A stretch of DNA of 25,569 nucleotides from Elusimicrobiota bacterium (lineage in GTDB: Bacteria > CAYTYR01 > UBA6262): the NCBI GenBank assembly GCA_003153935.1, contig PMCA01000006.1, positions 22,077 to 47,645 on the forward strand, given 5' to 3'. The notes beneath the pieces were generated by a model, which worked only from the letters and a program-made list of their open reading frames with translations, ran no database searches and had not been told where the DNA came from. Position numbers and translations under genes: made by a program. Below, one piece after another: positions 1,050 through 25,096 of the stretch. Each line of letters starts with the position of its first letter. Within the stretch, counting starts at the first letter, position 1.

Positions 1050-2372
1050 ATGAAAAAAACAGCAGGATGGATATTCATCATAAGTTTATTAATGCCGCTG
1101 GGCTTAGCTTGGGCCGGCGATACTCTTAGTTTGACGGTGAACCAGGCGGTAGCCATGTCATTGCAGAACTACCCCAGCGTCCGGCAGGCACTGGAGCAGG
1201 CCGGCGCGGCGGAAGCCAGGGTGGATCAAAGCAAAAGCGGATATTACCCAACGGTGACCGGAGAGGCGGTTTATAACCGGCTGCATCCGATAGAGGAGGT
1301 AGCTTTTGGCAGTGAAGTATTCCAGATGTTTCCAGCAGATAATTATGATATGCATATAGGTTTAAGGCATAATCTGTTTGATTTCGGCAAAACCTCTACT
1401 CAGTTGAACTTATCCCGGACCTATCAGAAAACCTCCCAGGATAACCTTCAGGCGGTCAAGACCGATCTTACTTTCCAAGCGATCAAGTCTTTTTATGCCG
1501 TATTGTACCTGGCCCGGAGCGTTGCCGTTGAAAAGGAAGAAATATCTATTCTCCAGGACCACCTGGATGAGACCGGAAAAAAAGTTAAGGCCGGTACCGC
1601 CACCGATTTCGAAACGCTTACCACCCAGGTAAGGGTGGCGCTAGCGCAGAATCGCCGGATAGACCTGGAAAATATGCTGAGAAAGCAGGATATCCAGCTA
1701 ACCACTTTTTTGGGAGTAGCTAATGATACCCGCCTGGATCTGCAGGGGGATTTTACCGTCGCGCCGGTGGAGCTGGACGAAGCCAAAAGCATTGACCAGG
1801 CCTTGCAGGAGCGCGTCGAAGTAAAATTAGCCAGGGATATGGAAACTGCTGCTAAGGTGCAGGAAAAACTGAGCAAGTACGGCAACAAACCCACGATCGA
1901 TCTTAATTTTTCATATGGCGTTAAAAACGGATACTTGCCGGACTTGAATGAGAGAGTGAAGAACTGGGTCGCCGGCGGGGACCTAAAGATACCTTTAATT
2001 GACGGGTTACGCACCCATTACCAGGAGAAGGAAGCTGTCGCTAATTTCAACGCGGCCCAGGCGCGGCGGCTGGAAGTGGAGAAACAGATAACAACCGATG
2101 TCAGGCAAGCTGTTTCCGACTATAGTTCCAGCCTGGAAAAATTGTCTGCTACCGATCTGCAGGTGAAATTGGCGCAGACTGCCCTGGACCAGGCCAGGAT
2201 CCGTTATGATGCCGGGGTGATAACTAACTTGGACCTGCTGGATGCCGAAAATTCTTTGTCCCAGGCCAGGCTGATGCAACTGGACGCGGCTTATAGTTAT
2301 GTATTGAGCAATTACGCTCTGCAGAAAGCCACCGGCGTTGACCTATCACGCCTGCCGGAAAAAAGTCAATAA
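1050..2372 (+). CDS. TolC-family outer-membrane efflux protein
   Basis: The 440-residue product has a signal peptide (basic MKK, hydrophobic run, cleavage near LAWA at about residue 22). Two related OEP halves follow, rich in long amphipathic helices with AEARVDQSKSGYYPTV in the first and QARIRYDAGVITNLDLLDAE in the second, both hallmarks of TolC/OprM-like channels. The start is supported by GGAG nine bases upstream and a two-base gap to the MFS gene. It should form the trimeric outer-membrane duct for the adjacent exporter. The last codons and stop overlap the distal half of the conserved promoter element that serves the next gene. Length is normal for the family. Confidence 0.92.
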   Translation: MKKTAGWIFIISLLMPLGLAWAGDTLSLTVNQAVAMSLQNYPSVRQALEQAGAAEARVDQSKSGYYPTVTGEAVYNRLHPIEEVAFGSEVFQMFPADNYDMHIGLRHNLFDFGKTSTQLNLSRTYQKTSQDNLQAVKTDLTFQAIKSFYAVLYLARSVAVEKEEISILQDHLDETGKKVKAGTATDFETLTTQVRVALAQNRRIDLENMLRKQDIQLTTFLGVANDTRLDLQGDFTVAPVELDEAKSIDQALQERVEVKLARDMETAAKVQEKLSKYGNKPTIDLNFSYGVKNGYLPDLNERVKNWVAGGDLKIPLIDGLRTHYQEKEAVANFNAAQARRLEVEKQITTDVRQAVSDYSSSLEKLSATDLQVKLAQTALDQARIRYDAGVITNLDLLDAENSLSQARLMQLDAAYSYVLSNYALQKATGVDLSRLPEKSQ

Positions 2373-2418
2373 AAAGTAGAATCAGCCAATTTACTTATTC
2401 TCCCGGTTGTCATATTAT
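2363..2418 (+). promoter_or_regulatory. Composite promoter element, copy 1
   Basis: AAGTCA at 2363-2368, then 16 bases ending in GAATCA, GCC at 2385-2387, AA, a -35-like TTTACT at 2390-2395, a 17-base spacer and a -10-like TATTAT at 2413-2418. The same arrangement recurs at 2947, 9672, 16804 and 25041. The upstream half lies inside the end of the TolC-family gene. It would drive the small secreted protein at 2463. The -35 is poor, as expected for an activator-dependent promoter. Confidence 0.7.
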
Positions 2419-2462
2419 TGTGTATGAAGCATTAATTACAAGTGAACGAAGGAGGGAATAAA

Positions 2463-2873
2463 ATGAGGTTGATCAAGGTAATTTTGATAATAAGCACAAT
2501 GATAATGTTGGCGACTGCGGCTTGGCCTAAGAATGAATCATTTCTGACGGGTAGAGTCTATTTTTTGGGTTACTCCACCATGGGAGGCAAGACCTGCAGC
2601 GGTTTTATGGTAGCCGATAACGGTACGTACTATTGTTTAACAGCTAGTGACGCATTGACTAACCTTAAAACGCAAGTAAGCGGCAATCCTGTTACCCGGG
2701 TATCGGTAAAAGGGGAAGTGACGCAGAACGGGGATGTGCGGTATCTGGATATGGATGATTTTACCGTTATTTCGTCCACACCGTCGTCTCTGGGGAGCAT
2801 TCCGGGACAACCGGAAGTCCAGCCGTCCGCTCCGCCCACATCCGTACCACCGATGTCGCCCAGGGGTTATTAA
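2463..2873 (+). CDS. Small secreted protein of unknown function
   Basis: This 136-residue product is not recognised. The ATG at 2463 is chosen because GGAGGG at 2450-2455 sits at correct spacing; an in-frame GTG at 2442 lies before that site and is less likely. Residues 1-20 form a signal peptide (MRLIKV then a hydrophobic run ending ATAAWP). The middle (about 25-105) looks like a small beta-rich domain with two cysteines, containing FLTGRVYFLGYSTMGGKTC and a DVRYLDMDDFTVI strand. The tail of about 30 residues is rich in proline and serine, so probably disordered. It stands alone between a composite promoter and a strong terminator. The product is likely periplasmic or surface exposed. Confidence 0.8.
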   Translation: MRLIKVILIISTMIMLATAAWPKNESFLTGRVYFLGYSTMGGKTCSGFMVADNGTYYCLTASDALTNLKTQVSGNPVTRVSVKGEVTQNGDVRYLDMDDFTVISSTPSSLGSIPGQPEVQPSAPPTSVPPMSPRGY

Positions 2874-2899
2874 GTTAAGTATTGCTTTTAAACCTATTT

Positions 2900-2935
2900 T
2901 AAGCGCCAGTTCTTCGGAACTGGCGCTTTTTATTT
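2900..2935 (+). terminator. Intrinsic terminator with TTCG loop
   Basis: A perfect 11-base-pair stem (2902-2912 with 2917-2927) closed by the very stable TTCG tetraloop and followed by a T-rich tract. It ends the small secreted-protein transcript. The next composite promoter begins directly in the A/T-rich tail. Confidence 0.93.
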
Positions 2936-2946
2936 TAAGTAGAAAC

Positions 2947-3002
2947 AAGTCAGATAAAAGTGGAATCCGCCAATTACAATGATACACGGGGTACGTTATA
3001 CT
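2947..3002 (+). promoter_or_regulatory. Composite promoter element, copy 2
   Basis: AAGTCA at 2947-2952, 16 bases ending in GGAATCC, GCC at 2969-2971, AA, -35-like TTACAA at 2974-2979, exactly 17 bases, then TATACT at 2997-3002. Spacing is identical to the other full copies. It directs transcription of the 53-residue gene at 3053. Confidence 0.72.
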
Positions 3003-3036
3003 AAGATCGCGTCACCGGTAACGGTTGCGCCATCTT
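3003..3036 (+). promoter_or_regulatory. Imperfect inverted repeat at the start of transcription
   Basis: Arms 3003-3017 and 3022-3036 pair at 13 of 15 positions (one of them G-T) around a GTAA centre, with ACCG/CGGT innermost and AAGAT/ATCTT outermost. It begins directly after the -10 hexamer, so it may be a repressor operator, or its inner part may be a 5' RNA hairpin with a GNRA loop. No T-tract follows, so it is not a terminator. Confidence 0.5.
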
Positions 3037-3052
3037 ATAACAGGAGGGGATC

Positions 3053-3214
3053 ATGCAACAACAAATGGAAGTCACATCTACCGTAGCGCAGAAAGACGAA
3101 ATCGAACTTCTGCAGATTTACCGGAAGGCTAAGTCCTTGAAGTATGCCGACATTAACGTGTCCATACAGGAAGGCGCGCGGGTCAAGCTATGGTTGACGG
3201 AAAAGATGAGATAA
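3053..3214 (+). CDS. Small 53-residue protein of unknown function
   Basis: An ORF beginning MQQQMEVTSTVAQKDEIELL with a very good Shine-Dalgarno (AGGAGGGG at 3042-3049). The product is charged, has no signal or membrane segment, and looks like a helix (residues 12-30) followed by two short beta strands ending KLWLTEKMR. It is not recognised. It is the only gene between a composite promoter with an operator-like repeat and a terminator region, so it is a self-standing regulated unit. A real gene is likely, given the ribosome site, promoter and ordinary codon use. Confidence 0.68.
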   Translation: MQQQMEVTSTVAQKDEIELLQIYRKAKSLKYADINVSIQEGARVKLWLTEKMR

Positions 3215-3226
3215 AGCGGTATTAAT

Positions 3227-3254
3227 TTTGTTTTGATAATAAAGGATATATAAT
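3227..3254 (+). promoter_or_regulatory. Possible AT-rich promoter before a hairpin leader
   Basis: TTTGTT at 3227-3232 and a perfect TATAAT at 3249-3254 are separated by 16 bases. Transcription from here would run at once into the hairpin at 3256. The -35 is weak and the region is AT-rich, so chance is possible. Confidence 0.35.
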
Positions 3255-3255
3255 T

Positions 3256-3289
3256 AAAGCAATTCTCATTAATTGGGAATTGCTTTTTT
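3256..3289 (+). terminator. Intrinsic terminator
   Basis: AAAGCAATTC (3256-3265) pairs with GAATTGCTTT (3277-3286) and a T run follows. It ends the 53-residue gene's transcript, or acts on the leader if the TATAAT at 3249 is used. Confidence 0.85.
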
Positions 3290-3304
3290 ATTAAGGAGGT
3301 AAAT

Positions 3305-3352
3305 ATGCATTTTATAGGGTTCTTGCTGTTTATCCCGAACCCGTCTGGATAG
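3305..3352 (+). CDS. Possible 15-residue leader peptide
   Basis: A near-perfect Shine-Dalgarno (AAGGAGGT at 3293-3300) stands four bases before an ATG that opens the short frame MHFIGFLLFIPNPSG. The stop lies in the loop of the terminator hairpin at 3338-3370. The peptide is hydrophobic and no amino acid is clearly enriched, so classical attenuation by codon starvation is not obvious. The arrangement of ribosome site, tiny ORF and overlapping terminator resembles a translated attenuator. It may instead be the remnant of a lost gene. Confidence 0.4.
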   Translation: MHFIGFLLFIPNPSG

Positions 3353-3371
3353 GAGCTGGCGGGTTTTTTTA
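3338..3371 (+). terminator. Intrinsic terminator overlapping the leader peptide
   Basis: AACCCGTC at 3338-3345 pairs with GGCGGGTT at 3358-3365 (one T-G pair), followed by a run of T. The left arm is within the 15-codon ORF, so ribosome movement could change folding. Confidence 0.75.
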
Positions 3372-3372
3372 A

Positions 3373-3401
3373 TTGAATGGCCAGGGTAGTTATGCTATAA
3401 C
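3373..3401 (+). promoter_or_regulatory. Sigma-70-type promoter for the retropepsin-like gene unit
   Basis: TTGAAT at 3373-3378, a 17-base spacer and TATAAC at 3396-3401. It lies just after a terminator and before the gene at 3464, and would also serve the prepilin, glycosyltransferase and methyltransferase genes downstream, which follow without large gaps. Confidence 0.6.
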
Positions 3402-3463
3402 GGGAACAACATTAGCCAGAGGAAATGATCGATCAGTATCTTAAAGAACAGAATGGGGAAATA

Positions 3464-4159
3464 ATGGAGAAATACTCGATTAGTGTAGCCGAAAGCCGCA
3501 TCGTCGCCATTATGAACGGCCAGCGCGTCCTGATCAGCACCGGCGCCACGGTCAGTATTGGCGAGATACCGGAGATCAAGATCCTGGGGCAGTCTTACAA
3601 GCTGGAAAATAGGCTGCAAGGCGCGGACCTAAATAGTATAAGAGACTCGTTAAAGACTGATATAAAAGCTTTACTGGGTATGGACATATTGACCAAGTTC
3701 GTTTTCTACGTTTCACACGGCATTCAGGCCATAATCTGCAGCGATTATTTCATTAATTTTAAGGAAAACATGCACGAACTGCCAATAAGTATCGAGCTAG
3801 GTCTCCCGGTAATAGATGTAAAAATAGCCGGGCTGGACATGAAAATGGTACTGGATACCGGTTCCAAATGGTCCTATCTGCAGGAAGACCTTTTAACCGG
3901 GGTAAAGAATATCAACATTCAAGAAACATACTATCCCGGCGCCGGGAGCTTCATAACCGACATTTATGACCTGCCGCTGGACCTCAAGGGCAAGGATATG
4001 AACGTTCCCGCGGGCGTCCTGCCGGAAGTTTTAAAAAGAGAATTAGCGGCCCGGGACTGCGTGGGCATCCTGGGAGCGGACATCTTCAGGTATTTTAATA
4101 TTCAATTTAACTTTAAGAATAGCACTATCTGGCTGGTGGAAAAAGGGAAGGCGCGCTAG
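3464..4159 (+). CDS. Retropepsin-like (clan AA) protein with two halves
   Basis: The ATG at 3464 is preferred because GGGGA is placed correctly before it; an in-frame ATG at 3425 has its purine run too close. With this start the protein has 231 residues. The C-terminal half carries the retropepsin signature VLDTGSKWSYL (Asp131) and the later GILGADIF (201-208). The N-terminal half repeats the same pattern as VLISTGATVSIG (25-28) and LLGMDILTKF (70-79), but the position of the catalytic Asp holds Ser. It therefore looks like a fused dimer with one active-site Asp lost. No signal peptide is seen. It may be a protease or a binding protein. Family assignment rests on motifs only; substrate unknown. 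Confidence 0.7.
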   Translation: MEKYSISVAESRIVAIMNGQRVLISTGATVSIGEIPEIKILGQSYKLENRLQGADLNSIRDSLKTDIKALLGMDILTKFVFYVSHGIQAIICSDYFINFKENMHELPISIELGLPVIDVKIAGLDMKMVLDTGSKWSYLQEDLLTGVKNINIQETYYPGAGSFITDIYDLPLDLKGKDMNVPAGVLPEVLKRELAARDCVGILGADIFRYFNIQFNFKNSTIWLVEKGKAR

Positions 4160-4178
4160 AAAGTTGTGGAGGGTGGCC

Positions 4179-4697: not shown

Positions 4698-4704
4698 AGG
4701 CGCT

Positions 4705-5880: not shown

Positions 5881-5881
5881 A

Positions 5882-7078: not shown

Positions 7079-7582
7079 GTGATTAATAATAGGCGAGGCT
7101 TTACGTTAGTGGAACTATTGATCGTCATAGTGATACTGGGCATCCTGGCGGCAATAGTGATCGCCCGGTTCGGCGGAGCTACCAGGGATAGTAAAGAAGC
7201 GAATCTGAAAGGTAACCTGCGAACCATCCGTTCAGCTCTAGAATCATATAAGGCTAATTCTCGCAGTAATTCTTATCCCTCAATATTAGATGACCTGTGG
7301 GAGGGGACTGCGGTAGATGTTGATAGTAAAACATTTCTGGAAAGGATCCCCGCTGATCCCTTCTTCCGCTTAAAGACGGTTTACCCAGTGACCTCGGGGG
7401 CTCCCCTGGACCCGGCCGATACTTTCATTGTCCGCAATTCCAAGATTACCGGCGGAGGCGGCTGGGCTTACGATTCCCGAGTGGGGCGCATATGTGCCAA
7501 TTACGATTCTGCAAACGACGCGGCTATCGTTGGTTTGCTACCGGAAGATTCCAGCTGGGGATTAAGATATAATATTTGGTAA
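7079..7582 (+). CDS. Type IV prepilin-like / type II secretion pseudopilin protein
   Basis: GTG at 7079 is chosen: GGAG at 7070-7073 is at correct spacing and the leader MINNRRG is then a typical seven-residue prepilin leader with Gly before the cleavage site. An upstream TTG at 7022 would give an unusual 26-residue leader. The mature 160-residue protein begins FTLVELLIVIVILGILAAIV with Glu at position 5. The remaining region has a long helix (residues about 30-60) with RTIRSALESYKAN, similar to the corresponding part of the first prepilin (IRSALSIYYGDN), and a GGGWAYDSRVG segment that parallels GGWAYLTPTG there. The two are diverged paralogues. A DUF481-type barrel starts 12 bases after the stop. 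Confidence 0.83.
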   Translation: MINNRRGFTLVELLIVIVILGILAAIVIARFGGATRDSKEANLKGNLRTIRSALESYKANSRSNSYPSILDDLWEGTAVDVDSKTFLERIPADPFFRLKTVYPVTSGAPLDPADTFIVRNSKITGGGGWAYDSRVGRICANYDSANDAAIVGLLPEDSSWGLRYNIW

Positions 7583-7594
7583 AGGAGCAGTAAT

Positions 7595-8332
7595 ATGAAA
7601 AAATTTATTACAATTATGATTTATTTGTCAATGCTGATACTATTAATCGCCCTGGTGGCGCAGGCCGCGGACGCGCCGGCCAAACCCTGGAAAGCGAACG
7701 CGGAGGTCTCTTTTGTCAATGCCAACGGTAACACTAAGGCAACAACGCTGTCGGCTAAAGGGAAATATAATTATGACTGGGCCAAGGACGGTCTGGAAGT
7801 CGAAGCCGGAGCTTTTAACACCACGAACCAGCAGGTAACTACTGCGGAGCAATATTTTGCCAGTGAAAGAGTGACCAGGAAGTGGACCGATAAAGACTAT
7901 CTGTTCGAGAAGATCCGCTGGGACAAGGACCGGTTCGCCGGGGTAAGAGACCGCTACGACATGGGTGTCGGCGAGGGCCGGCTGCTCCTGGATTTGGCCA
8001 AGGACAAACTGAATGCGGAGTTGGGAGCAGGATATATTACTGAAGATCATTATGATAGTATACCTAAATCCGAATATGCCACCGGCCGGGCTTATGCCAA
8101 GTACGTGCGTATATTGAGCGCCACTGCCACCGCCAGCCAGGATGTTGAATACCTGGCGGATTTAAAGAACAGTGATGCGTATAGAGTAACCGCGGAAACA
8201 GCGCTTATTGCCTCCATGTCCACGCATTTGTCACTAAAAACATCGTTTATAGTAAAGCATGTTAATAAGCCTCCGGCAGGGTTCTATAAGAACGACACTA
8301 TGTTACTGGTAACTCTCATTATTAACTATTAA
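7595..8332 (+). CDS. DUF481-type outer-membrane beta-barrel protein
   Basis: The 245-residue product has a signal peptide (about 1-25, ending AQAAD). The rest is alternating beta-strand sequence: KANAEVSFVNANGNTKATTL and LFEKIRWDKDRFAGVRDRYD are characteristic of DUF481 proteins (YdiY, 'salt-induced outer membrane protein'). It ends with an aromatic residue, as outer-membrane barrels usually do. AAAGGAG precedes the ATG. It sits between a prepilin gene and mscL with gaps of only 12 and 14 bases, so the three may be cotranscribed. Grouping with the mechanosensitive channel fits a role under osmotic change; function of the family is poorly known. Confidence 0.8.
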   Translation: MKKFITIMIYLSMLILLIALVAQAADAPAKPWKANAEVSFVNANGNTKATTLSAKGKYNYDWAKDGLEVEAGAFNTTNQQVTTAEQYFASERVTRKWTDKDYLFEKIRWDKDRFAGVRDRYDMGVGEGRLLLDLAKDKLNAELGAGYITEDHYDSIPKSEYATGRAYAKYVRILSATATASQDVEYLADLKNSDAYRVTAETALIASMSTHLSLKTSFIVKHVNKPPAGFYKNDTMLLVTLIINY

Positions 8333-9658: not shown

Positions 9659-9671
9659 TTTATGTAGAAAA

Positions 9672-9727
9672 AAGTCAGAATAAAGCGGAATCAGCCGCTT
9701 GTAAAATATAGGTAAATAATGCAAAAT
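9672..9727 (+). promoter_or_regulatory. Composite promoter element, copy 3 (polyphosphate operon)
   Basis: AAGTCA at 9672-9677, 16 bases ending in CGGAATCA, GCC at 9694-9696, two bases, TTGTAA at 9699-9704, 17 bases, CAAAAT at 9722-9727. The upstream half is almost identical to copy 4, matching even through the preceding T-tract and ATGTAGAAAA. It lies just before a second promoter, so the operon may have tandem promoters. Confidence 0.68.
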
Positions 9728-9852: not shown

Positions 9853-10368
9853 ATGAAACATCTTTACCTGGTTAGACACGCTAAATCCAGCAAGGATATT
9901 CCCGATATTACTGATATAGAGCGGCCCTTGAACAAACGGGGCTTAAGAGATTCCCGGCTAATGGGCCGGCGTTTGAAAAAAAAGGGAATAACCGTAGACG
10001 CCATTTACTCCAGCCCGGCTAAAAGGGCTTTGGCCACCGCCAAACGCTTAGCGGAGGAGATAGGGGTTCCCCGCCGGGATATAGTGACAGTAAAATCCCT
10101 GTACCGGGCCAATGTCCTGAAGTTGATGGCGGCCATTAAGCAAATCGCTGACACCGCGGAAACAGCCATGATATTCGGCCATAACCCTGAGTTTCTTAAC
10201 CTGGCTAACTACCTGACCCCGCGCCTGATCGTAAAATTTCCCACCAGTGGTGTTTTAGGCGTGGATTTTAACGTAAATTCATGGAAAAAAGTAACGAGAA
10301 AAAGCGGCCGGGTAGCGTTTTTTGACTATCCCAAGAAAAAAAATAAACCACCCAAGGAACTACTATGA
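9853..10368 (+). CDS. sixA: SixA-type phosphohistidine phosphatase (histidine phosphatase family)
   Basis: The 171-residue product starts with LYLVRHAKSS (His9 is the phospho-accepting residue of the RHG motif) and has YSSPAKRALATAKRL and FGHNPEF in the order expected for the SixA branch of the phosphoglycerate-mutase-like fold. SixA proteins remove phosphate from phosphohistidine on proteins. AAGGAG precedes the ATG. The stop overlaps the start of the ppx/gppA gene (ATGA). SixA next to ppx, ppk1 and CHAD is common, so the physiological substrate may relate to phosphate or polyphosphate metabolism. A KKKNKPPK tail is basic. Confidence 0.88.
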   Translation: MKHLYLVRHAKSSKDIPDITDIERPLNKRGLRDSRLMGRRLKKKGITVDAIYSSPAKRALATAKRLAEEIGVPRRDIVTVKSLYRANVLKLMAAIKQIADTAETAMIFGHNPEFLNLANYLTPRLIVKFPTSGVLGVDFNVNSWKKVTRKSGRVAFFDYPKKKNKPPKELL

Positions 10369-11918
10369 AAGAAAAAGATCCCCTCAGAGCGGCAGTGCTG
10401 GATATCGGCACCCATTCCATCAAACTGCTGATAGCGGAAGAACACGAAGGCGATATAAAGATATTGGAATCGCTGAAGAATTTACTGCCTTTAGGTAACG
10501 ACACGTTTTTTAAGGACCGTATCAGCCAGGAAACGATCAATCGGACCGTGGCGATACTGGAGAAATACAGCGAGAAACTGAAGGAATACTCGATCACCAG
10601 TGTGAAGGCTATAGCTACCACCGCGGTTCGCGAAGCGGAGAACCGAGCCATGTTCGTTGATACCATCTACCGCCGGACCGGTTTTAATATAGAGGTCCTG
10701 ACCGTGGGTGACGTCATCTATTACATCGACGCTTACCTGCACAAAAAACTAAAGGATAAGTACCCTCTGCATGAAAAGAACGTACTGATCGCGGAACTAG
10801 GGGCCGGCAGTCTGGATATCTCGGTCATGGCCCAGGGTTACACTTTGATGAATATCGGGCTGCCACTTGGCACTATGCGCATCCGGCAGCTATTAAGCAA
10901 ACTGGACGGCAGTCTGCTCGAGAATTACGAAGCCGCTACGGAAAACACGGATAACGAATTTGATTACCTGAAACGGGAAATGCCGCCGATAAACATTGAC
11001 GATATTATCCTGATCGATGAAACTTATGCCGCGTTCTTGCCTCAAATAATGTCCACTAACAAACCACCGGAGGCTTTCTTTAAACTGGGCGAAGCCGATA
11101 TCAGCGTGCTTTTAGGCAAGCTGACGGACCGGAAGATCGAAGATATCGCCAGCGAATACAAAATCCCCCTGGAAACTGCGGATACTTTTCCCGGCTACGC
11201 CATAATCCTGACCACTTTCGTGCGACTCAGCCAGAATAAGAATATTTACATACTGGAAGTGTCGCTGGCTGAGGCGGTGCTGGCCGACCTGATCCTGGAC
11301 TTCGATATTTCCCCGAAATACAACAAAACCAATCAGCTGATATCCATCGCCACCTCGATCTGCCGCAAATTCAACACCGATATGCAGCACGTGCAGAAAG
11401 TCGCGGAACTGTCGGACATCCTGTTCGACAATTTCAAGGAAACACTGGGTCTCAAGAAATCCGATTCTCTTTATCTTTTGCTCGCCGCCTACCTGCATGA
11501 CGTCGGGATGTTTCTCTACAATCGGGCGCATCACAAACACAGCGAATACCTTATCTCCAACCTTAATCTGTTCCGTCTTACGGAAGAGGAGATCAAGGTC
11601 ATCGCCTGTATCGGTCGCTACCATCGTAAGGGAGCGCCGGCCAGAAGCCATCTCCTGTACAACGCCCTGCCGAAGGATAAGCAGGTGCTGGTGCAAAAGT
11701 TAAGTTCTATCCTGCGCATAGCCAACGCGCTGGACCGCTCGCATAAGCAAAAGGTTAAAAAAATGGATATCAAATTTAACCGCAGCCAGGATATAACCTT
11801 AACCGTGGTGGTGGAAGCGAACTTTATCCTGGAAAAAGTAGATTTTACAGAGAAAAAAGAAATGTTTGAAGAGATCTCCGGTAATAAGATCAATCTAAAA
11901 ATACAGCACGCGGAATGA
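10365..11918 (+). CDS. ppx: Exopolyphosphatase / guanosine pentaphosphatase (Ppx/GppA) with HD domain
   Basis: Of its 517 residues, the first 300 or so form the actin-like ASKHA fold: AAVLDIGTHSIKLLIAE (phosphate loop 1, residues 9-25), IATTAVREAENR, and the second phosphate loop VLIAELGAGSLDISVM (about 140-155). The C-terminal part is HD-like, with AYLHDVGMFLYNRAHHKHSEYL near residue 380, as in long Ppx/GppA enzymes. It should hydrolyse the ends of inorganic polyphosphate and perhaps pppGpp. It overlaps sixA by four bases and is followed six bases later by ppk1, so synthesis and breakdown of polyphosphate are in one operon. Which substrate dominates cannot be told from sequence. Confidence 0.9.
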   Translation: MKEKDPLRAAVLDIGTHSIKLLIAEEHEGDIKILESLKNLLPLGNDTFFKDRISQETINRTVAILEKYSEKLKEYSITSVKAIATTAVREAENRAMFVDTIYRRTGFNIEVLTVGDVIYYIDAYLHKKLKDKYPLHEKNVLIAELGAGSLDISVMAQGYTLMNIGLPLGTMRIRQLLSKLDGSLLENYEAATENTDNEFDYLKREMPPINIDDIILIDETYAAFLPQIMSTNKPPEAFFKLGEADISVLLGKLTDRKIEDIASEYKIPLETADTFPGYAIILTTFVRLSQNKNIYILEVSLAEAVLADLILDFDISPKYNKTNQLISIATSICRKFNTDMQHVQKVAELSDILFDNFKETLGLKKSDSLYLLLAAYLHDVGMFLYNRAHHKHSEYLISNLNLFRLTEEEIKVIACIGRYHRKGAPARSHLLYNALPKDKQVLVQKLSSILRIANALDRSHKQKVKKMDIKFNRSQDITLTVVVEANFILEKVDFTEKKEMFEEISGNKINLKIQHAE

Positions 11919-11924
11919 GGACCT

Positions 11925-13958
11925 GTGGTTAAAGGCCAAAAGGACCCAAAAGAAATATATATACATCGCGACCTGAGCTGGCTGGCTTTTAACGAGCGCG
12001 TGCTGGCTGAGGCCTGTGACCGGAACAATCCGCTGCTGGAACGGCTGCGGTTCCTCAGTATCGCCGCCAGCAATCTGGACGAATTTTTCACCGTCCGGGT
12101 GGCGGGTTTAAAGAGGCTTCTGGCCGCCGGGTATAATCGTAAGGATGATTTCGGCTATTATCCGCCGGAACTGGCTGAGGGTATACGGACCAAAGTGGAG
12201 GCCTTGATCGCCAAACTATATTCAGTTTACCAGGGGGATATCAGCGCGGACCTGACCAGGAACAAGATCTTTATTCTCAAATACGAGCAGCTTAACCCTG
12301 AGCAAAAGAAGGCGGCGAAAAAATATTTTGAAACGACCTTATTCCCTATAATCACGCCGATGGCCGTGGACCAGGGCCATCCTTTCCCGGTGTTACATTC
12401 CAAGACTAACGCTTTCGCTATCCAGCTGAGTCGCGGTGACAACTCGTACCTGGCGGTTATCGTCATCCCTAAATCGGTCCCGAGGCTTTACCGGCTGCCT
12501 TCGGAAAAAGATGAGAACTGTTTCATCTTCATTGATGACCTGATCCGCAACAATATGGAAGCTTTTTTCCGGGGTTACAAACTGCTTAATAATTTTGCCT
12601 TCAGGATTATCCGCGACAGCGAGCTCTCTCTGCAGGAAGACTACGCGCCGGACTTATTGAAAGCCATCGAAGGTGAAATTAAAAAACGGCCGAAAGCCAA
12701 CGTGGTTGGTCTGCAGGTAGAAAAAAGCGGCTACGCGGAACTACTGGAACTGCTCCAGGCAAACCTGGATTTTCCCCCAGAGGAGATACTTTCTATCTCG
12801 GGCGATCTTGACCTGTCTTCACTGGCTGAATTGCCCGCTCAGGTGGTTAAGCCGGAATTATCATATCGCAGTTACACACCGGCCAAACTGGAATATGAGA
12901 ATATATTTGATAAGGTAAAAGAAGGCGATTTTCTCTTGCACCTGCCTTATCAATCTTTCCAGCCTACGGTGGACTTAATCCAGGCCGCGGCGGCGGACAA
13001 AGACGTATTGGCCATTAAGATGACGCTTTACCGCACGAATGAAGATTCGGCCATAGTCCGGGCTCTGGCGAAGGCGGCCAAGAACAAGAAGCAGGTAACA
13101 GTCTTTGTGGAATTGAAGGCGCGCTTTGACGAAGAGAAAAATATTGAATGGACCCGGGACCTGGAAGCAGCCGGCTGTCATGTGATTTACGGGATACCGG
13201 GAATGAAGATTCATTCCAAAATGGCTCTGATAGTCAGGAAAGAGGAAGGTCGCATCCACCGTTATGTGCACTTATCCACCGGTAATTATAACGAAATTAC
13301 CGCCCGGGTTTATACCGATATCGGCTATTTCACCGAGAGCGATGATTTTGCTATGGACATAGCGGATATTTTTAATGTCATCACCGGGTATTCCCTGCCC
13401 GGCCGCTGGAAGAAAATAGTGGCCTCCCCGCATGACCTGCGCAAATATTTATTTGAGTTGATCGACAAGGAGATCGATTTCCAGAAAAAGTACAAGAACG
13501 GCGCCATCTTTGCCAAAATGAACTCCCTGGAAGACACGCAGATGATCGACAAACTGTATGAGGCTTCAGCCGCGGGAGTTAAGATCAAGTTGATCGTTCG
13601 CGGGATATGCTGCCTGATGCCTGGAGTCAAGGGCCTGAGCGATAATATAGAGGTTAAGAGCATCGTGGGCCGTTTCCTGGAACACTCCCGGATCTTCATG
13701 TTTCATAATAATTCGTCTCCCCGGACTTTCCTCTCCTCCGCCGATTGGATGGGACGCAATTTTGACCGCAGGATAGAGCTTCTTTTCGAAGTAACCAGGA
13801 AGGACCTGAATGAGCACATGAGTTCGATCCTGGATGAATACTGGCGGGATAACCTCAAAGCCTATCGGCTTGATTCCGCCGGGCAGTATATCCGCTCCAA
13901 ACCGGAAGATAAAGCCTTCAACGCGCAGGAAAATCTCATCGAACATTATGCGAAATAA
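11925..13958 (+). CDS. ppk1: Polyphosphate kinase 1
   Basis: GTG start at 11925 after GAGGA; 677 residues, normal for PPK1. The N-terminal domain opens with YIHRDLSWLAFNERVLAEA, and RFLSIAASNLDEFFTVRVAG follows. The two PLD-like catalytic domains contain LAIKMTLYRTNEDSAIVRAL, the catalytic-histidine motif GMKIHSKMAL (His430) and SADWMGRNFDRRIELLFEV. The enzyme moves the gamma phosphate of ATP onto polyphosphate, reversibly, at the membrane periphery. It is between ppx and a CHAD gene that overlaps its 3' end. Confidence 0.97.
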   Translation: MVKGQKDPKEIYIHRDLSWLAFNERVLAEACDRNNPLLERLRFLSIAASNLDEFFTVRVAGLKRLLAAGYNRKDDFGYYPPELAEGIRTKVEALIAKLYSVYQGDISADLTRNKIFILKYEQLNPEQKKAAKKYFETTLFPIITPMAVDQGHPFPVLHSKTNAFAIQLSRGDNSYLAVIVIPKSVPRLYRLPSEKDENCFIFIDDLIRNNMEAFFRGYKLLNNFAFRIIRDSELSLQEDYAPDLLKAIEGEIKKRPKANVVGLQVEKSGYAELLELLQANLDFPPEEILSISGDLDLSSLAELPAQVVKPELSYRSYTPAKLEYENIFDKVKEGDFLLHLPYQSFQPTVDLIQAAAADKDVLAIKMTLYRTNEDSAIVRALAKAAKNKKQVTVFVELKARFDEEKNIEWTRDLEAAGCHVIYGIPGMKIHSKMALIVRKEEGRIHRYVHLSTGNYNEITARVYTDIGYFTESDDFAMDIADIFNVITGYSLPGRWKKIVASPHDLRKYLFELIDKEIDFQKKYKNGAIFAKMNSLEDTQMIDKLYEASAAGVKIKLIVRGICCLMPGVKGLSDNIEVKSIVGRFLEHSRIFMFHNNSSPRTFLSSADWMGRNFDRRIELLFEVTRKDLNEHMSSILDEYWRDNLKAYRLDSAGQYIRSKPEDKAFNAQENLIEHYAK

Positions 13959-15896: not shown

Positions 15897-16727
15897 ATGA
15901 AATATAGTGAACTATTTCGGGTTAAACCAGGGCATAAAGTTAACTTGAGCACAATTGATCCGACTTTTACTATTAAGAACAAGGATAAAGCTTCGGCCAA
16001 GGAAGAGATCGAGAAATATAACCGGCACCTGCGCGACTTGCAATATCATTTATACGCCGAAGGGAAACATTCACTGCTTATTTGCCTGCAGGGGCTGGAT
16101 GGCGCTGGTAAGGACGGGGTCATCAACCATGTCCTGGGCGCTATGAATCCACAAGGAACGAAAGTCTACGGGTTTAAGGTCCCGACGAAAGAAGAAGCTG
16201 CGCACGATTTCCTCTGGCGCATTGAAAAACAGGTTCCGGCCAAAGGCGAGGTGACTATCTTTAACCGCTCACAATATGAAGACGTCCTGGTGGCGCGGGT
16301 GCATAAAACTGTCCCAAAAAAAGTTTGGTCAAAGCGTTACGAATTCATCAATTATTTCGAGAAAAAACTGGTCACCAATGGAACGCATATTTTGAAGTTT
16401 TTGCTGCACATCAGCCCGGAAGAACAGCTGGAGCGGTTCCAGCAGCGTCTCGATGACCCCGAGCGTCGTTGGAAAATAAGTGAAGCCGACTATGAAGAAA
16501 GAAAATACTGGGATGAGTACATCCGGGCCTATGAAAAGGCCTTGAGTAAGACGAGCACTCCCTATGCGCCATGGTATATCATTCCTGCCAACCATAAATG
16601 GTTCCGTGATCTCGCCGTGTCCAAGATAGTTATTGAAAAACTTGAATCCATGGGGATGAAATTACCGCCAACCAAAGTGGATATTGCTGAAATTCGGCGC
16701 AAATATCACAAGGCCCGTAAGAAATAA
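15897..16727 (+). CDS. ppk2: Polyphosphate kinase 2 family nucleotide phosphotransferase
   Basis: The 276-residue, single-domain PPK2 has the Walker A loop GLDGAGKDG (66-74), GFKVPTKEEAAHDFLWRIEKQVP as lid and linker, and the Walker-B-like IFNRSQYEDVLVARVH. The C-terminal part has QQRLDDPERRWKISEADYEER and APWYIIPANHKWFRDLAVSKIV, conserved in the PPK2 family polyphosphate:nucleotide phosphotransferases. It would charge AMP or ADP (or GDP) from polyphosphate; class I, II or III cannot be fixed by eye. GAGGAG gives a strong ribosome site. It is a separate unit with its own promoter and terminator, downstream of the ppk1 operon. Confidence 0.94.
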   Translation: MKYSELFRVKPGHKVNLSTIDPTFTIKNKDKASAKEEIEKYNRHLRDLQYHLYAEGKHSLLICLQGLDGAGKDGVINHVLGAMNPQGTKVYGFKVPTKEEAAHDFLWRIEKQVPAKGEVTIFNRSQYEDVLVARVHKTVPKKVWSKRYEFINYFEKKLVTNGTHILKFLLHISPEEQLERFQQRLDDPERRWKISEADYEERKYWDEYIRAYEKALSKTSTPYAPWYIIPANHKWFRDLAVSKIVIEKLESMGMKLPPTKVDIAEIRRKYHKARKK

Positions 16728-16790: not shown

Positions 16791-16803
16791 TTTATGTAGA
16801 AAA

Positions 16804-16859
16804 AAGTCAAAATAAAGAGGAATCAGCCAATAGTCTTGAGCTCTCCCAGGGTGTAAAAT
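16804..16859 (+). promoter_or_regulatory. Composite promoter element, copy 4
   Basis: AAGTCA at 16804-16809, 16 bases ending in AGGAATCA, GCC at 16826-16828, AA, TAGTCT at 16831-16836 in the -35 position, 17 bases, TAAAAT at 16854-16859. A Shine-Dalgarno starts only about 12 bases after the -10, so the first ORF here is the one at 16885. Confidence 0.7.
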
Positions 16860-16982: not shown

Positions 16983-17189
16983 ATGAATAAAGGTTTATCA
17001 GTTGTACTTCTGGTGATAGGAGTTGTTTTGCTGGTTTTTGGCTATAACGCTTACCATTCAGCTGCTTCCGGTGTTTCCCGCTTCTTCACAGGTGAACCCA
17101 CAGACAGGGCACTCTGGCTGCTGATCGGTGGAGCGGTAGCGAGTATAGCCGGTGTAGTGGGCTTAACCATGGGGCCTAAGGCCAGTTAA
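16983..17189 (+). CDS. DUF3185-family small membrane protein
   Basis: This 68-residue protein has two membrane helices (about 5-22 and 44-63). ASGVSRFFTGEPTDRALWLLIGG in between is the conserved part of DUF3185. GAGGAGG at 16971-16977 gives a strong start. The family has no established function. It belongs to the unit driven by composite promoter copy 4, followed 15 bases later by the AsmA-like gene. Confidence 0.8.
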   Translation: MNKGLSVVLLVIGVVLLVFGYNAYHSAASGVSRFFTGEPTDRALWLLIGGAVASIAGVVGLTMGPKAS

Positions 17190-18302: not shown

Positions 18303-18857
18303 ATGAAACCAACGGAAATACTGAAAAAAGAGCACGAAGACATCAAGATCATGCTGAATATCTTTGAGAGACTCGTTTTTAAGCTTGAATCCACGGAGGG
18401 AGCGAGTCTGGAGCATGTCGAGCAGGCTTTGAACTATCTGGAACTCTATGTCGGTAAATGTCATTTTGGCAAAGAAGAGGAATTGTTCTTCCCTGCTTTG
18501 GAAAAGATAGGCATTCCGAAAGACGGCGGACCATTGGGGGCGATGATCCAGGACCATGATTCCTGCCGCAGCAATATGAAAGAGATGAGAGCGGCGTTTG
18601 AGAAGTATAAAGCCGGGGATCATACAGTGGCTAACAATATCATCAAGCCAGGGCATAAATACGTGATCACGCTCAAAACTCATTTTGACACGGAGGCCAA
18701 CATCCTGTTCCCGATGGCGGATAAAGGGTTACCGGCCGCGAAGCAGGATGAGTTGTCCATAAAATTCGGGCAATACGAGATAACCAAGATCGGCGCCGGC
18801 ATCCACGAGACATTGCACCAAACCCTTGAGCAGCTTAAAGCTATCTATTTGATATGA
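18303..18857 (+). CDS. Hemerythrin HHE-domain protein
   Basis: Its 184 residues form one HHE four-helix bundle: LKKEHEDIKIMLNIFERL, then CHFGKEEELFFPAL, DHDSCRSNMKEMRAAFEKY and LKTHFDTEANILFPMAD supply the histidine and acidic residues of a di-iron site that can bind oxygen, NO or take part in iron-centre repair. GGGAGGAA is the ribosome site. The stop overlaps the start of the next gene (ATGA), so both are coupled. In an anaerobe this would fit oxygen or NO sensing or scavenging. Confidence 0.9.
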   Translation: MKPTEILKKEHEDIKIMLNIFERLVFKLESTEGASLEHVEQALNYLELYVGKCHFGKEEELFFPALEKIGIPKDGGPLGAMIQDHDSCRSNMKEMRAAFEKYKAGDHTVANNIIKPGHKYVITLKTHFDTEANILFPMADKGLPAAKQDELSIKFGQYEITKIGAGIHETLHQTLEQLKAIYLI

Positions 18858-21434: not shown

Positions 21435-21437
21435 ATA

Positions 21438-22136: not shown

Positions 22137-22144
22137 TTACAGTA

Positions 22145-22432
22145 TCAACCACAGTTGCAACCTTCTCCGCCGCACGTTCCGCTTTCGCCGGGTTTGGCGT
22201 TCAACAGGGCCGACGCGCAGCCAACACCGGCATTAACCGTTATCGCTTCGAACTGGCAATTCATCTGGCAGGCCCCGCACTCGATACAGGCATCCTTATT
22301 TACAACTTTAGCTTTTTTGTTCTCAATAATGAAAACGCCATGCGGGCAAACCTCGACGCACCGGCCGCAATTCCGGCATTTGCTCTCATCATATTTTAAA
22401 GTAGAAACCCCTGCGAGATATATTAAGCTCAT
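22145..22432 (-). CDS. hgcB: HgcB, ferredoxin partner for mercury methylation
   Basis: The 95-residue product has two 4Fe-4S motifs: CRNCGRCVEVCP (Cys19, 22, 25, 29) and CIECGACQMNC (Cys49, 52, 55, 59), the second being the HgcB signature. GVGCASALL (Cys72) and the cysteine-rich end TCGGEGCNCG (Cys87, 92, 94) are also hgcB-like. HgcB passes low-potential electrons to the corrinoid of HgcA and its C-terminal cysteines are thought to bind Hg(II). The ATG immediately follows the hgcA stop and GGAGG precedes it, so the pair is one transcript. Motif agreement plus the adjacent hgcA makes the call firm. Confidence 0.93.
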   Translation of the reverse strand: MSLIYLAGVSTLKYDESKCRNCGRCVEVCPHGVFIIENKKAKVVNKDACIECGACQMNCQFEAITVNAGVGCASALLNAKPGESGTCGGEGCNCG

Positions 22433-23494
22433 CTAAATCATCCTCCCTATGTAAGTTAACACCCCGGCTATTACCACCAGGGAAATTATCACCGGCATAG
22501 CCAACCTGATCTCTTTTTTTACCCCGGAAGGGGAGGTGTAGGTGGAGCAACCGGTATAATTCAGGGCCAGGAAAGCGGAAACTGCGGTCATCAATATAGT
22601 TAAGGCCGCCACCGAGACTGGTGGGATATACAGAAGAGAATAGCGGTTGCAGGCAGTCAAAAATCCAGCCGTTACTATCCCTCCCAATATCCCGCCCTTA
22701 GCCGAAAAAGCCTTAAAGGGTAAATACGGCAAGAGCAGGGCGGTAAATAATGTTCCTGACAGAATGGCCACCCAGAATGTCGCCAAAATGATCAATAATA
22801 TCCTGCTGGGGAAAAAGATATTGATGATGATCAAGCCTATGGTGATGATAAGGCCTTTCCAGGCCGCCGGCACAAGCTCCGTCCAGGAGACAGCTACCCG
22901 GTCCCAGGCGCCGAAAGTCACCCGGCGCATAGCTGCATCAGCCTTCATCCCCGCGGATAAGTATTTCTTTATGTCACTGGCCCGCACCGGACCGTATTTC
23001 ACGCTAAACCCGCTGAAAGCGCTAACCATCTGGGCCGACACTCCCGGAGCTCCCAACTGGGGCAGAATAACGGTCCTGGAAGTAACAACTTCCGCCAATT
23101 TGGTCCCGGCGATCTGTTTTACCAGTTCAGCCGTGCCGAATGTTCCCTTGCCAGCCGCGCACCAGACATTAACCCCTTTGGTGTCCAATACCAGCAGCCA
23201 GGCGTCAACTCCGGCCAGTTCCCGGCGCAAGACATCAAAAGAGAGCTTATAATTCGCCGATACCAGTACAGGAGAGTTTTTGCCGGGGTTCCCCACACGG
23301 TATAGGCCCGGTTTCACGGCGTAATCCATACGGTTAATGTTCAATCGTACGGCGATCGCCCCAATATAGTCGCTAAGGCGCCAATCCGTAGTTATCCGGC
23401 CCCCGATAAGAGCTATCGGCTTGTATTTTATGTTTTCATTGGCCGCTGGTCCACAGCAGGCTTTGTCAGTATTCTTGGTTTCTGCGCATTCCAT
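22433..23494 (-). CDS. hgcA: HgcA, corrinoid protein for mercury methylation
   Basis: The 353-residue product has an N-terminal soluble corrinoid-binding domain with GVNVWCAAGKGTFGT near 107-121. Cys112 sits in the cap-helix motif N(V/I)WCA(A/G)GK that is diagnostic of HgcA and gives the lower axial ligand to cobalt. The C-terminal half has five membrane helices (ending VVIAGVLTYIGRMI). HgcA moves a methyl group to Hg(II), making methylmercury. AAAGGAG precedes the ATG. The N-terminus is cysteine-rich (Cys3, 13, 14), perhaps metal-binding. It reads divergently from the ferredoxin-nitroreductase gene and has its own promoter. Confidence 0.95.
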   Translation of the reverse strand: MECAETKNTDKACCGPAANENIKYKPIALIGGRITTDWRLSDYIGAIAVRLNINRMDYAVKPGLYRVGNPGKNSPVLVSANYKLSFDVLRRELAGVDAWLLVLDTKGVNVWCAAGKGTFGTAELVKQIAGTKLAEVVTSRTVILPQLGAPGVSAQMVSAFSGFSVKYGPVRASDIKKYLSAGMKADAAMRRVTFGAWDRVAVSWTELVPAAWKGLIITIGLIIINIFFPSRILLIILATFWVAILSGTLFTALLLPYLPFKAFSAKGGILGGIVTAGFLTACNRYSLLYIPPVSVAALTILMTAVSAFLALNYTGCSTYTSPSGVKKEIRLAMPVIISLVVIAGVLTYIGRMI

Positions 23495-23514
23495 ATAAGC
23501 TCCTTTATTGCTTA

Positions 23515-23544
23515 ATGATATTGCTGATGACCGGATCTAGTCAA
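23515..23544 (-). promoter_or_regulatory. Promoter of hgcAB
   Basis: On the minus strand TTGACT (23544-23539), an 18-base spacer and TATCAT (23520-23515), about 20 bases before the ATG. It is divergent from the promoter at 23565, with 20 bases between the two -35 hexamers. No mercury-type operator (long dyad inside the spacer) is visible. Confidence 0.65.
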
Positions 23545-23564
23545 GCGAATAATTATAAATAGGG

Positions 23565-23594
23565 TTGACAGGCAGCAGGGGCGGGGAGTATAAG
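23565..23594 (+). promoter_or_regulatory. Sigma-70-type promoter of the ferredoxin-nitroreductase gene
   Basis: TTGACA at 23565-23570, 18-base G-rich spacer, TATAAG at 23589-23594, about 40 bases before the ATG at 23635. Confidence 0.75.
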
Positions 23595-23634
23595 GAAATA
23601 TAAATATTCCCTTAAATTAGCTTGGAGGAGTTTA

Positions 23635-24459
23635 ATGAGCGAGACAGTTTTTGATCAAAAGATCTGTATCAAATGCGGGGTATGCGTTGAGGTCTGCCCG
23701 GTAGGTATCATTAGTAAACCCGGTGCGGATGAATACCCCTTTATATCCGCAGAAAACAAGGCGAAGTGTATCCAGTGCGGGCAATGTGAAGCATTCTGTC
23801 CTAACGAGGCAGTGGAAGTTATAGGCACTGATCTGTTTAAGATGGATATCCCAAAAAATCAACCCGCCATAACAGCGGAGCAGATCAAAAGCTATTTCCC
23901 CATGAGACGGTCCATCAGGCGCTATAAACAGCAGCCGGTAGACAGGAAAACATTGGAACAGCTATTAGATGTAGTGCGTTACGCGCCATCAGGCATCAAC
24001 CAGCAGGCGATTCGCTGGATAGTCGTCTATAATAAGGAAGAGGTAAGAAAACTCACCTCTATGACGATCGATATCATGCGCCAGATGGTCAAGGATAAAT
24101 CCCCGATGGCCGCCATGATGAATTTTCAGAATATGGTCTCTGCCTGGGAGCAGGGGAAAGACATCGTCTGCCGAAACGCCCCGCATTTAGTGATCGCCTA
24201 CGGCCGCAAGGAGAACCGAATAGCGCCTGTTGACGCCATTATTGCCATGGCGCATTTCGATCTGGCGGCGCCTGCTTTTGGCCTAGGCTCCTGCTCGGCA
24301 GGATATTTTGGCATTATCGCGAACCTGTCCCCGGCGCTGCGCCAAGCCTTGGGAATTCCCGGCGACTGTGTCCACCTGGGGACCCTGCTGACCGGCTATC
24401 CGCAATACACTCCCCGGCGCGCCCCAAAACGCAAACGAGCATCTATAACCTGGAAGTAG
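23635..24459 (+). CDS. Ferredoxin-nitroreductase fusion protein
   Basis: Of 274 residues, 1-65 hold two 4Fe-4S motifs (CIKCGVCVEVCP and CIQCGQCEAFCP), and from about residue 85 a nitroreductase domain starts with MRRSIRRYKQQPVDRKTLEQLL and continues through APSGINQQAIRWIVVY and a Gly/Cys-rich FGLGSCSAGYF. Such fusions let ferredoxin electrons reach FMN directly and are typical of anaerobes. GGAGGAG is the ribosome site. It is transcribed away from hgcA. The physiological acceptor is unknown. Confidence 0.93.
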   Translation: MSETVFDQKICIKCGVCVEVCPVGIISKPGADEYPFISAENKAKCIQCGQCEAFCPNEAVEVIGTDLFKMDIPKNQPAITAEQIKSYFPMRRSIRRYKQQPVDRKTLEQLLDVVRYAPSGINQQAIRWIVVYNKEEVRKLTSMTIDIMRQMVKDKSPMAAMMNFQNMVSAWEQGKDIVCRNAPHLVIAYGRKENRIAPVDAIIAMAHFDLAAPAFGLGSCSAGYFGIIANLSPALRQALGIPGDCVHLGTLLTGYPQYTPRRAPKRKRASITWK

Positions 24460-24469
24460 GGATAAAATG

Positions 24470-24501
24470 AAAGCAATCCAGAAATAAGGATTGCTTTTTT
24501 T
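24470..24501 (+). terminator. Intrinsic terminator between convergent genes
   Basis: A perfect 10-base stem AAAGCAATCC (24470-24479) with GGATTGCTTT (24488-24497) and a T run. Its left arm shares AAAGCAA with the hairpins at 3256 and 9784. The minus strand is less T-rich after the stem, so termination of the minus-strand gene is possible but weaker. Confidence 0.92.
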
Positions 24502-24533
24502 GTCTCTTGTTGCACTTAAACTCGACTTACCGC

Positions 24534-24797
24534 CTATGCATGCCTTACGACGAAGCGTGTCACTCCCACTAAAACTATCGCACCAACTAGCGCCATCAGG
24601 AACGCGCCAAACGAACTGCCGGCAGATATTCCCATTACTCTGCCCATCCATCCACCAAGCACAGCTCCTACTATCCCGATCAGGATGTCTATGATAACCC
24701 CGAATCCCCGACCTCTCACAATAAGCCCCGCCAACCATCCGACTACTCCACCGATGAACAGAAACCAAATCCAATACCCAATGTTATTGTCATACAT
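24534..24797 (-). CDS. GlsB/YeaQ/YmgE-family stress-response membrane protein
   Basis: The 87-residue product has three membrane helices rich in glycine: GYWIWFLFIGGVVGWLAGL, then GFGVIIDILIGIVGAVLGGWM and GAFLMALVGAIVLVGVTRFVV. The pattern GWLAG...RG.GFG...DI..GI.GA..GG is that of the transglycosylase-associated / GlsB family, stress-induced in several bacteria. GGGAGG precedes the ATG. The upstream small ORF ends after this start (eight-base overlap), suggesting coupling, and both appear to depend on a minus-strand version of the composite promoter. Confidence 0.88.
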   Translation of the reverse strand: MYDNNIGYWIWFLFIGGVVGWLAGLIVRGRGFGVIIDILIGIVGAVLGGWMGRVMGISAGSSFGAFLMALVGAIVLVGVTRFVVRHA

Positions 24798-24915
24798 ATT
24801 GTTGCCTCCCTGCCTGCCGATAGGCAGGCTTCTTATTAGCCGTTACCATGTTACAGACTTTCATCTCGAATTCAACCTGCACAAGATCGCCCGGCTTTAG
24901 TTCAACTGCACAAAT
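24790..24915 (-). CDS. Possible 41-residue protein with ATT start
   Basis: On the minus strand AGGAGG is followed six bases later by ATT, opening a frame that begins ICAVELKPGDLVQVEFEMKV and ends in PAYRQAGRQQYV. No ATG, GTG or TTG opens this frame near the ribosome site; ATG codons at residues 18 and 23 lack one. The first half looks like a beta-strand domain start. The last part is encoded by a dispersed palindrome (24812-24829), so a repeat may have altered the end. The ORF overlaps the GlsB-like start by eight bases. Compare the ATT-started ORF at 16885. A decayed or non-coding leader is the alternative. Confidence 0.4.
   Translation of the reverse strand: MCAVELKPGDLVQVEFEMKVCNMVTANKKPAYRQAGRQQYV
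24812..24829. repeat. Short perfect palindromic repeat (REP-like)
   Basis: GCCTGCC, GATA, GGCAGGC: a seven-base-pair hairpin in the leader of the GlsB-like gene. GCCTGCC/GGCAGGC palindromes are frequent dispersed repeats in many uncultured bacterial genomes. Only this one copy is in the window. On the minus strand it ends a few bases before the Shine-Dalgarno. Confidence 0.55.
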
Positions 24916-24936
24916 TGCTTTCCTCCTTTTATCTAT

Positions 24937-24991
24937 ATTATAGACTTATAAAAATATATAGCAATTGGCTAATAGCACTTATTAAGAACAT
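24937..24991 (-). promoter_or_regulatory. Composite promoter element, reduced minus-strand copy
   Basis: On the minus strand ATTAGCC (GCC at 24969-24967), AA, TTGCTA at 24964-24959, 16 bases, and a perfect TATAAT at 24942-24937. At the place of AAGTCA stands ATGTTC, so only the proximal half is well kept. A ribosome site follows within about 12 bases of the -10. Confidence 0.6.
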
Positions 24992-25040
24992 ATATCTACC
25001 TCATTGTTCAATCTCCTGCTGGTGTTATTGTGGGGGATAT

Positions 25041-25096
25041 AAGTCAGTAAATAAGGGGATTAGCCAATTGTTATATTCCCTGTATAAATTTATAAT
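25041..25096 (+). promoter_or_regulatory. Composite promoter element, copy 5
   Basis: AAGTCA at 25041-25046, 16 bases ending in GGGATTA, GCC at 25063-25065, AA, TTGTTA at 25068-25073, 17 bases, perfect TATAAT at 25091-25096. It drives the second nitroreductase. The region 24992-25040 between this and the minus-strand copy shows nothing I can identify. Confidence 0.7.

Follow-up and report, generated by a model that had tools for sequence, protein, structure and literature searches.

Which protein reads a conserved sequence that recurs directly upstream of promoters in a bacterium from a lineage whose global gene regulation has hardly been studied? This question is raised by a stretch of 25,569 nucleotides of an Elusimicrobiota bacterium (contig PMCA01000006.1, positions 22,077 to 47,645), here called the window; knowledge of how Omnitrophota, Elusimicrobiota and the uncultured lineages near them control their genes globally is very scant. 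A first-pass annotation had described five plus-strand sites, each made up of AAGTCA, 16 bases, GCC, two bases, a −35-like hexamer, 17 bases and a −10-like hexamer, and had proposed a stress regulon without naming its regulator. We found that the element is about 38 bp long; from sequence comparison, the protein that uses it as its operator is very probably an AraC-type two-component response regulator, which would act as an activator at class II sigma70-type promoters. The element, its fixed spacing and orientation, the content of the regulon, and the co-occurrence and linkage with the regulator gene were all computed directly.

Conserved element in the window and its genome

AAGTCA begins at positions 2363, 2947, 9672, 16804 and 25041 of the plus strand, and the positions and spacing given in the first-pass annotation proved exact at all five sites. 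The sites had also been called intergenic, which does not hold for the first of them, as it takes in the stop codon (2370-2372) that ends the preceding open reading frame (ORF), 1050-2372. The minus-strand version that had been listed beside them does keep the proximal half, TATAAT and the 16-base spacer, but is a weak, degenerate relative that lacks AAGTCA.

The short pattern ARTCA-N16-GCC is by itself mildly unusual in the window, with 5 occurrences against a shuffle mean of 1.76 (2 of 100 shuffles reach 5). A genome scan with bare AAGTCA-N16-GCC gave 14 forward and 2 reverse matches, whereas the backward control gave 7 and 7; of the 16 matches, 7 look like noise and the other 9 share much more sequence. 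Because the bare pattern is too loose for a genome search, profile models were used instead, namely a 72-column sequence-only profile (R1) and a 38-column core profile from 47 sites (R2), by which about 25 sites are present in the window's genome of 1.75 Mb. R1 gave 25 hits at E < 0.01 in this genome, together with hits in all three genomes of the same family, and nothing below E 0.01 in 36 other genomes searched; R2 gave 24 own-genome hits at E < 0.01. Within the window, R2 recovered the five sites at E 3e-11 to 4e-8, and the next best was the minus-strand copy at E 0.014 (5.9e-4 genome-wide with R1). A matrix of 44 sites, all from genomes outside the window's family, likewise placed the five sites in the top five ranks (37.8 to 48.0 bits), followed by the minus-strand copy at 10.7 bits, with 17.3 bits as the best of 200 dinucleotide shuffles; this test is not fully blind, because the 44 sites were first found by a family-trained model. 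The full element in the window is far beyond chance. The first-pass annotation had also proposed comparing occurrence inside genes with that upstream of starts, and a check of each hit does not refute its reading: none of the 24 strong own-genome R2 sites (E < 1e-3) lies inside a same-strand frame of at least 100 codons, and all 24 have a start codon ahead within about 330 nt, with an opposite-strand open frame at a few.

Anatomy of the element

The conserved core described earlier was real and too short: the element starts 9 bases before AAGTCA and reads GGTRGAAAAAAGTCARWAAAAAGNGGAATCAGCCAAT. In the consensus of 88 sites, GGTRGAAAAAAGTCARWAAAAAGNGGAATCAGCCAA is followed by T (98%), which is the first base of the −35 hexamer. 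Four blocks, GTRG, GTCA, GNGG and GCCA, follow one another at intervals of about one helical turn and share one face of the helix. The profile resembles itself most at shifts of 10-12 and 20-21 bp; the significance is modest (p 0.03 for 20 bp, 0.05 for 21 bp). Tandem half-sites, GTRGAA..GTCA and GNGGAA..GCCA, stand 20-21 bp apart. The repeat seen in the first-pass annotation, A(A/G)TCA pentamers 16 bases apart, should be given up in favour of these half-sites, as the AATCA of the second half is kept poorly from one site to the next. Its distinction from the Pho box can be retained: 11-bp direct repeats of a TGTCA-like block are not seen, since GTCA occurs at full strength only once per element, the other blocks being GTRG, GNGG and GCCA.

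The operator is directional and asymmetric, and both its orientation and its distance to the −10 are fixed. It abuts a poor −35 (mean 3.5 of 6 matches), of which the first T is near-invariant and the second moderately conserved, and a better −10 (4.6 of 6) usually follows 17 bp further on. A TA...T hexamer keeps a single, fixed column in 34 of 43 family sites; of the 44 sites from other lineages, 27 have it there or one column earlier. The 10-12 and 20-21 bp periodicity, together with an asymmetric site beside the −35, suits two AraC-type domains.

Because the general stress responses of well-studied bacteria usually use alternative sigma factors (SigB, RpoS, EcfG), it could be supposed that such a factor reads the conserved sequence as an extended promoter. 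This is very unlikely, since the conserved blocks reach about 35 bp further upstream than the −35, beyond the range of sigma contacts, and the −10 hexamer is of the ordinary TATAAT-like kind, next to a −35 conserved mainly at its first T. Copies of the element often lie just past terminators and have an A-rich stretch in common, as might be expected of a dispersed repeat, a mobile element or an RNA element and not of a protein-binding site. Such an origin is scarcely credible, however, given conservation that runs column by column through 38 bp, a spacer that is free and a −10 that stays in place, copies that face start codons and precede different genes in different phyla, and no Rfam match in the window.

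Candidate regulator and its association with the element

Sites on contig C31 of the same genome, outside the window, lead to receiver proteins, one of which is joined to an AraC-type domain, and from these sites the candidate regulator was traced to C31:6328-7035. It is a response regulator with an N-terminal receiver (PF00072, E 2.3e-25) and a C-terminal AraC-type double helix-turn-helix (PF12833 (HTH_18), E 2.6e-22, plus PF00165 (HTH_AraC)), and its residues 135-233 match solved AraC-type domains. The phosphorylation residues D9, D52, T80 and K102 are invariant in 11 orthologues. None of the curated NCBIfam models reaches its cut-off for this protein, the NCBIfam AraC model giving E 2.7e-18, below cut-off. 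In a scan of public genomes, ten orthologues were found at 53-72% identity, followed by a drop to about 30%; the labels of these metagenome-assembled genomes (MAGs) are Elusimicrobia, Omnitrophota, Auribacterota, PVC and unclassified. Two of the ten assemblies are probably the same as genomes G001 and G003, whose orthologues stand at 68 and 72% identity.

Genomes of Elusimicrobiota, Omnitrophota and Auribacterota contain the element, almost invariably alongside the regulator. Within 156 kb around orthologues there were 15 hits (E < 0.01); the surroundings of 38 unrelated response regulators, 556 kb in all, gave none. In a mixed set of whole genomes, hits (E <= 1e-4) occurred in 9 of 10 with an orthologue, with 0 of 18 controls below 0.01. 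Among 198 Elusimicrobiota genomes, the motif (E <= 5e-4) was present in 10 of 13 with an orthologue versus 0 of 185 without (Fisher p 1.4e-14; 2e-13 without G044, a contributor of sites). Among 285 Omnitrophota genomes, the corresponding counts (E <= 1e-3) were 29 of 40 versus 10 of 245 (p 2.4e-22), and at least two sites were present in 24 of 40 versus 3 of 245. Linkage was also evident: of 125 strong sites listed for regulator-bearing genomes, 39 are no more than 5 kb away from the regulator gene, where 0.8 would be expected. In the window's family, G002, which has no orthologue, has 2 sites compared with 8 and 8 in congeners with one, and incompleteness is a possible cause, as G002 is 91% complete. 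With these data, the earlier proposal of a conserved element before poor −35 hexamers, serving a stress-type regulon with an activator, is supported genome-wide, in the family and across several phyla, and the activator would be the AraC-type response regulator.

A site also stands upstream of the regulator gene itself in three genomes (the window's genome, G001 and G003). The proximal half of the site is degraded there, and the −35 is better (TTTACA, TTGACT), which would allow basal expression. The regulator usually has a histidine kinase as its neighbour, as in G001, G003, L098, L101, L102 and L104, with PAS/GAF and often MASE3 sensor domains; on C31 of the window's genome there are receivers near the regulator and no adjoining kinase. 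The gene order at L098 is regulator, MASE3/PAS kinase, receiver, receiver, superoxide reductase and ferritin-like protein.

Several points weigh against assigning the element to this regulator. The co-occurrence counts are uncorrected for shared ancestry; the chief safeguards are the linkage and the fact that the pattern recurs in several phyla. Linkage alone would also fit a regulator that is itself just a target. Ten Omnitrophota genomes lack a full orthologue and yet give a motif hit; G421 has a terminal orthologue fragment, G297 and G482 have a more distant AraC-type protein, and the rest show neither. Moreover, 11 of the 40 Omnitrophota with a homologue have no strong site, and about half of these hold the most divergent homologues. 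The stress role, finally, is a putative one, read from family names.

The sites in genomes without a full orthologue, and the self-similarity peak at 10-12 bp, would also suit a different DNA-binding protein, such as a response regulator of the OmpR/PhoB type that reads direct repeats of 11 bp, or a repeat binder like MraZ, with the AraC-type regulator as a conserved target. From a screen that covered part of the transcription factor families, we consider this unlikely: the AraC-type orthologue predicts the motif in two phyla and in the mixed set, no other DNA-binding protein was seen in the conserved regulator/kinase/receiver cluster, and the second block is GTCA in one half and GCCA in the other, where uniform repeats would have the same block twice.

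Two further observations concern Omnitrophota genomes. The distant AraC-type domains of G297 (C2:120613-120945) and G482 (C62:540-908) have the receiver part unmatched, and a replacement of the regulator is possible there. Seven Omnitrophota genomes (G293, G370, G443, G451, G459, G481 and G483) have divergent homologues at E 1e-62 to 1e-73 and no strong sites; these are possibly a sister regulator with another operator.

Regulon content and proposed mechanism

First targets in the window's genome include two cupredoxins, a superoxide reductase with a rubredoxin-like domain, MsrAB, a nitroreductase, a LigB-type dioxygenase, a cation-transporting ATPase, GlsB/YmgE-type, DUF2934, DUF3185, DUF6629 and DUF2062 proteins, polyphosphate enzymes, receivers and several small exported-looking proteins. 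The 59 first genes in other genomes include those for 13 receivers and for MsrAB, BON, Hsp20, Redoxin, superoxide dismutase (SOD), DJ-1/PfpI, DUF2267, DUF378, DUF3300 and GT20 proteins. The functions of these families, peroxiredoxin also being among the targets, suggest a general or oxidative stress regulon, and a shared stress role is thereby suggested for the small proteins DUF2934, DUF3185, DUF2267, DUF378 and DUF6629. Stand-alone receivers are the commonest class of target, for example at L075:4984-5343, 7242-7646 and 7628-8002, and may serve as phosphate sinks, relays or protein partners.

In the mechanism that we propose, a histidine kinase with PAS/GAF and often MASE3 domains would phosphorylate the receiver of the regulator, and the active dimer would bind head-to-tail to the two half-sites. 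As the proximal half ends directly before the −35, the regulator could then bring sigma70-type RNA polymerase to promoters whose −10 is good and whose −35 is poor. Besides many stand-alone receivers, the regulon would include the gene of the regulator. That the regulator binds and activates, that it needs phosphorylation to do so, and what signal it answers to are inferred from the computed features. If this is correct, one operator and its regulator make a regulon of up to two dozen promoters readable from sequence alone.

A wider reading is put forward more tentatively, as a real possibility: that these bacteria run their general stress response through one AraC-type two-component regulator with a PAS/GAF kinase and not through an alternative sigma factor, with an operator near-unchanged in Elusimicrobiota, Omnitrophota, Auribacterota and related uncultured lineages, and with the bank of receivers buffering or relaying phosphate. 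Such length combined with such stability across phyla is unusual in an operator, because operators normally drift much faster than regulators. No earlier description was found in full-text literature on AraC-type response regulators, stress regulons and motifs in Omnitrophota/Elusimicrobia, which is weak evidence of novelty, as the literature covered consisted of open-licence papers.

Sites and target genes in the window

The sites, their promoters and first genes are listed in Table 1. The gene at site 6 has a paralogue on contig C5 (transglycosylase-associated, PF04226) that carries a full site.

Table 1. Positions of operators, promoters and target genes in the window
Feature	Position	Strand	Details
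Operator core, site 1 (AAGTCA 2363)	2354..2391	+	R2 E 3.1e-11 in window; 45.2 bits with other-lineage matrix
Promoter, site 1	2390..2418	+	−35 TTTACT 2390-2395, 17 bp, −10 TATTAT 2413-2418
Target gene, site 1	2463..2873	+	136-aa protein, signal-like N-terminus, without Pfam match
Operator core, site 2 (AAGTCA 2947)	2938..2975	+	R2 E 1.5e-10; 45.4 bits
Promoter, site 2	2974..3002	+	−35 TTACAA 2974-2979, −10 TATACT 2997-3002
Target gene, site 2	3053..3214	+	53-aa small protein, without Pfam match
Operator core, site 3 (AAGTCA 9672)	9663..9700	+	R2 E 5.5e-11; 48.0 bits
Promoter, site 3	9699..9727	+	−35 TTGTAA 9699-9704, −10 CAAAAT 9722-9727
Target unit, site 3	9853..13958	+	Polyphosphate unit of three genes
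Histidine phosphatase (site 3 unit)	9853-10368	+	Pfam PF00300
Ppx/GppA (site 3 unit)	10365-11918	+	Pfam PF02541
Polyphosphate kinase PPK1 (site 3 unit)	11925-13958	+	Pfam PF02503/PF13090/PF17941
Operator core, site 4 (AAGTCA 16804)	16795..16832	+	R2 E 5.7e-11; 47.9 bits
Promoter, site 4	16831..16859	+	−35 TAGTCT 16831-16836, −10 TAAAAT 16854-16859
Target gene, site 4	16983..17189	+	DUF3185 protein, heads unit; PF11381 E 1.7e-23
Operator core, site 5 (AAGTCA 25041)	25032..25069	+	R2 E 3.5e-8; 37.8 bits
Promoter, site 5	25068..25096	+	−35 TTGTTA 25068-25073, −10 TATAAT 25091-25096
Target gene, site 5	25168..25569	+	Nitroreductase family, PF00881 E 4.4e-30; cut by window end, which is the contig end
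Degenerate operator, site 6	24963..25000	-	Proximal half AGCCAATT retained, distal half weak, no AAGTCA
Promoter, site 6	24937..24964	-	−35 TTGCTA 24964-24959, 16 bp, −10 TATAAT 24942-24937
Target gene, site 6	24534..24797	-	87-aa GlsB/YmgE-type protein

A divergent pair of sites flanks 24963-25069 of the window, and similar back-to-back sites occur in G000 (C18:23198-23330, L079), driving a DEAD-box helicase from one strand and a 55-aa protein from the opposite one. The polyphosphate kinases PPK1 (11925-13958) and PPK2 (15897-16727) lie close together with Ppx between two sites. A hemerythrin-domain protein (18303-18857) is encoded in the unit downstream of the DUF3185 gene, and a second hemerythrin is found near the regulator cluster in G001 (L086:12272-12814). 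The minus-strand protein at 22433-23494 matches the CO dehydrogenase/acetyl-CoA synthase delta family (PF03599), which hints at acetyl-CoA pathway chemistry.

Comparison with known systems

Known AraC-type response regulators have the same two-domain architecture (receiver plus HTH_18) and likewise a directional, asymmetric operator beside the −35, and the present regulator is detectably related in sequence to PDB 3cu5 (receiver) and 6swi (DNA-binding domain); its orthologue group is nevertheless separate (53-72% identity inside, about 30% outside), and it is distinguished by a large multi-gene stress-type regulon and a 38-bp operator kept across phyla.

PhoB also uses a direct-repeat operator upstream of a poor −35, and polyphosphate genes are among the targets here, but block order and spacing differ from those of the Pho box, and the regulator is AraC-type, not winged-helix. 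The SigB, RpoS and PhyR-EcfG regulons contain similar kinds of targets, such as MsrAB, SOD, Hsp20, small membrane stress proteins and polyphosphate or osmolyte enzymes; the promoters described here differ in having a sigma70-type −10 with an upstream operator and a linked two-component activator, and no alternative sigma signature.

AraC at araI1-I2, like other class II activators, uses direct-repeat half-sites about 21 bp apart, the proximal one at the −35, and each AraC half-site has two major-groove blocks one turn apart. The half-site layout is the same here, and the DNA-binding domain is related in sequence, whereas a receiver replaces the sugar-binding domain, the base sequence differs, and dozens of promoters are involved instead of one pathway.

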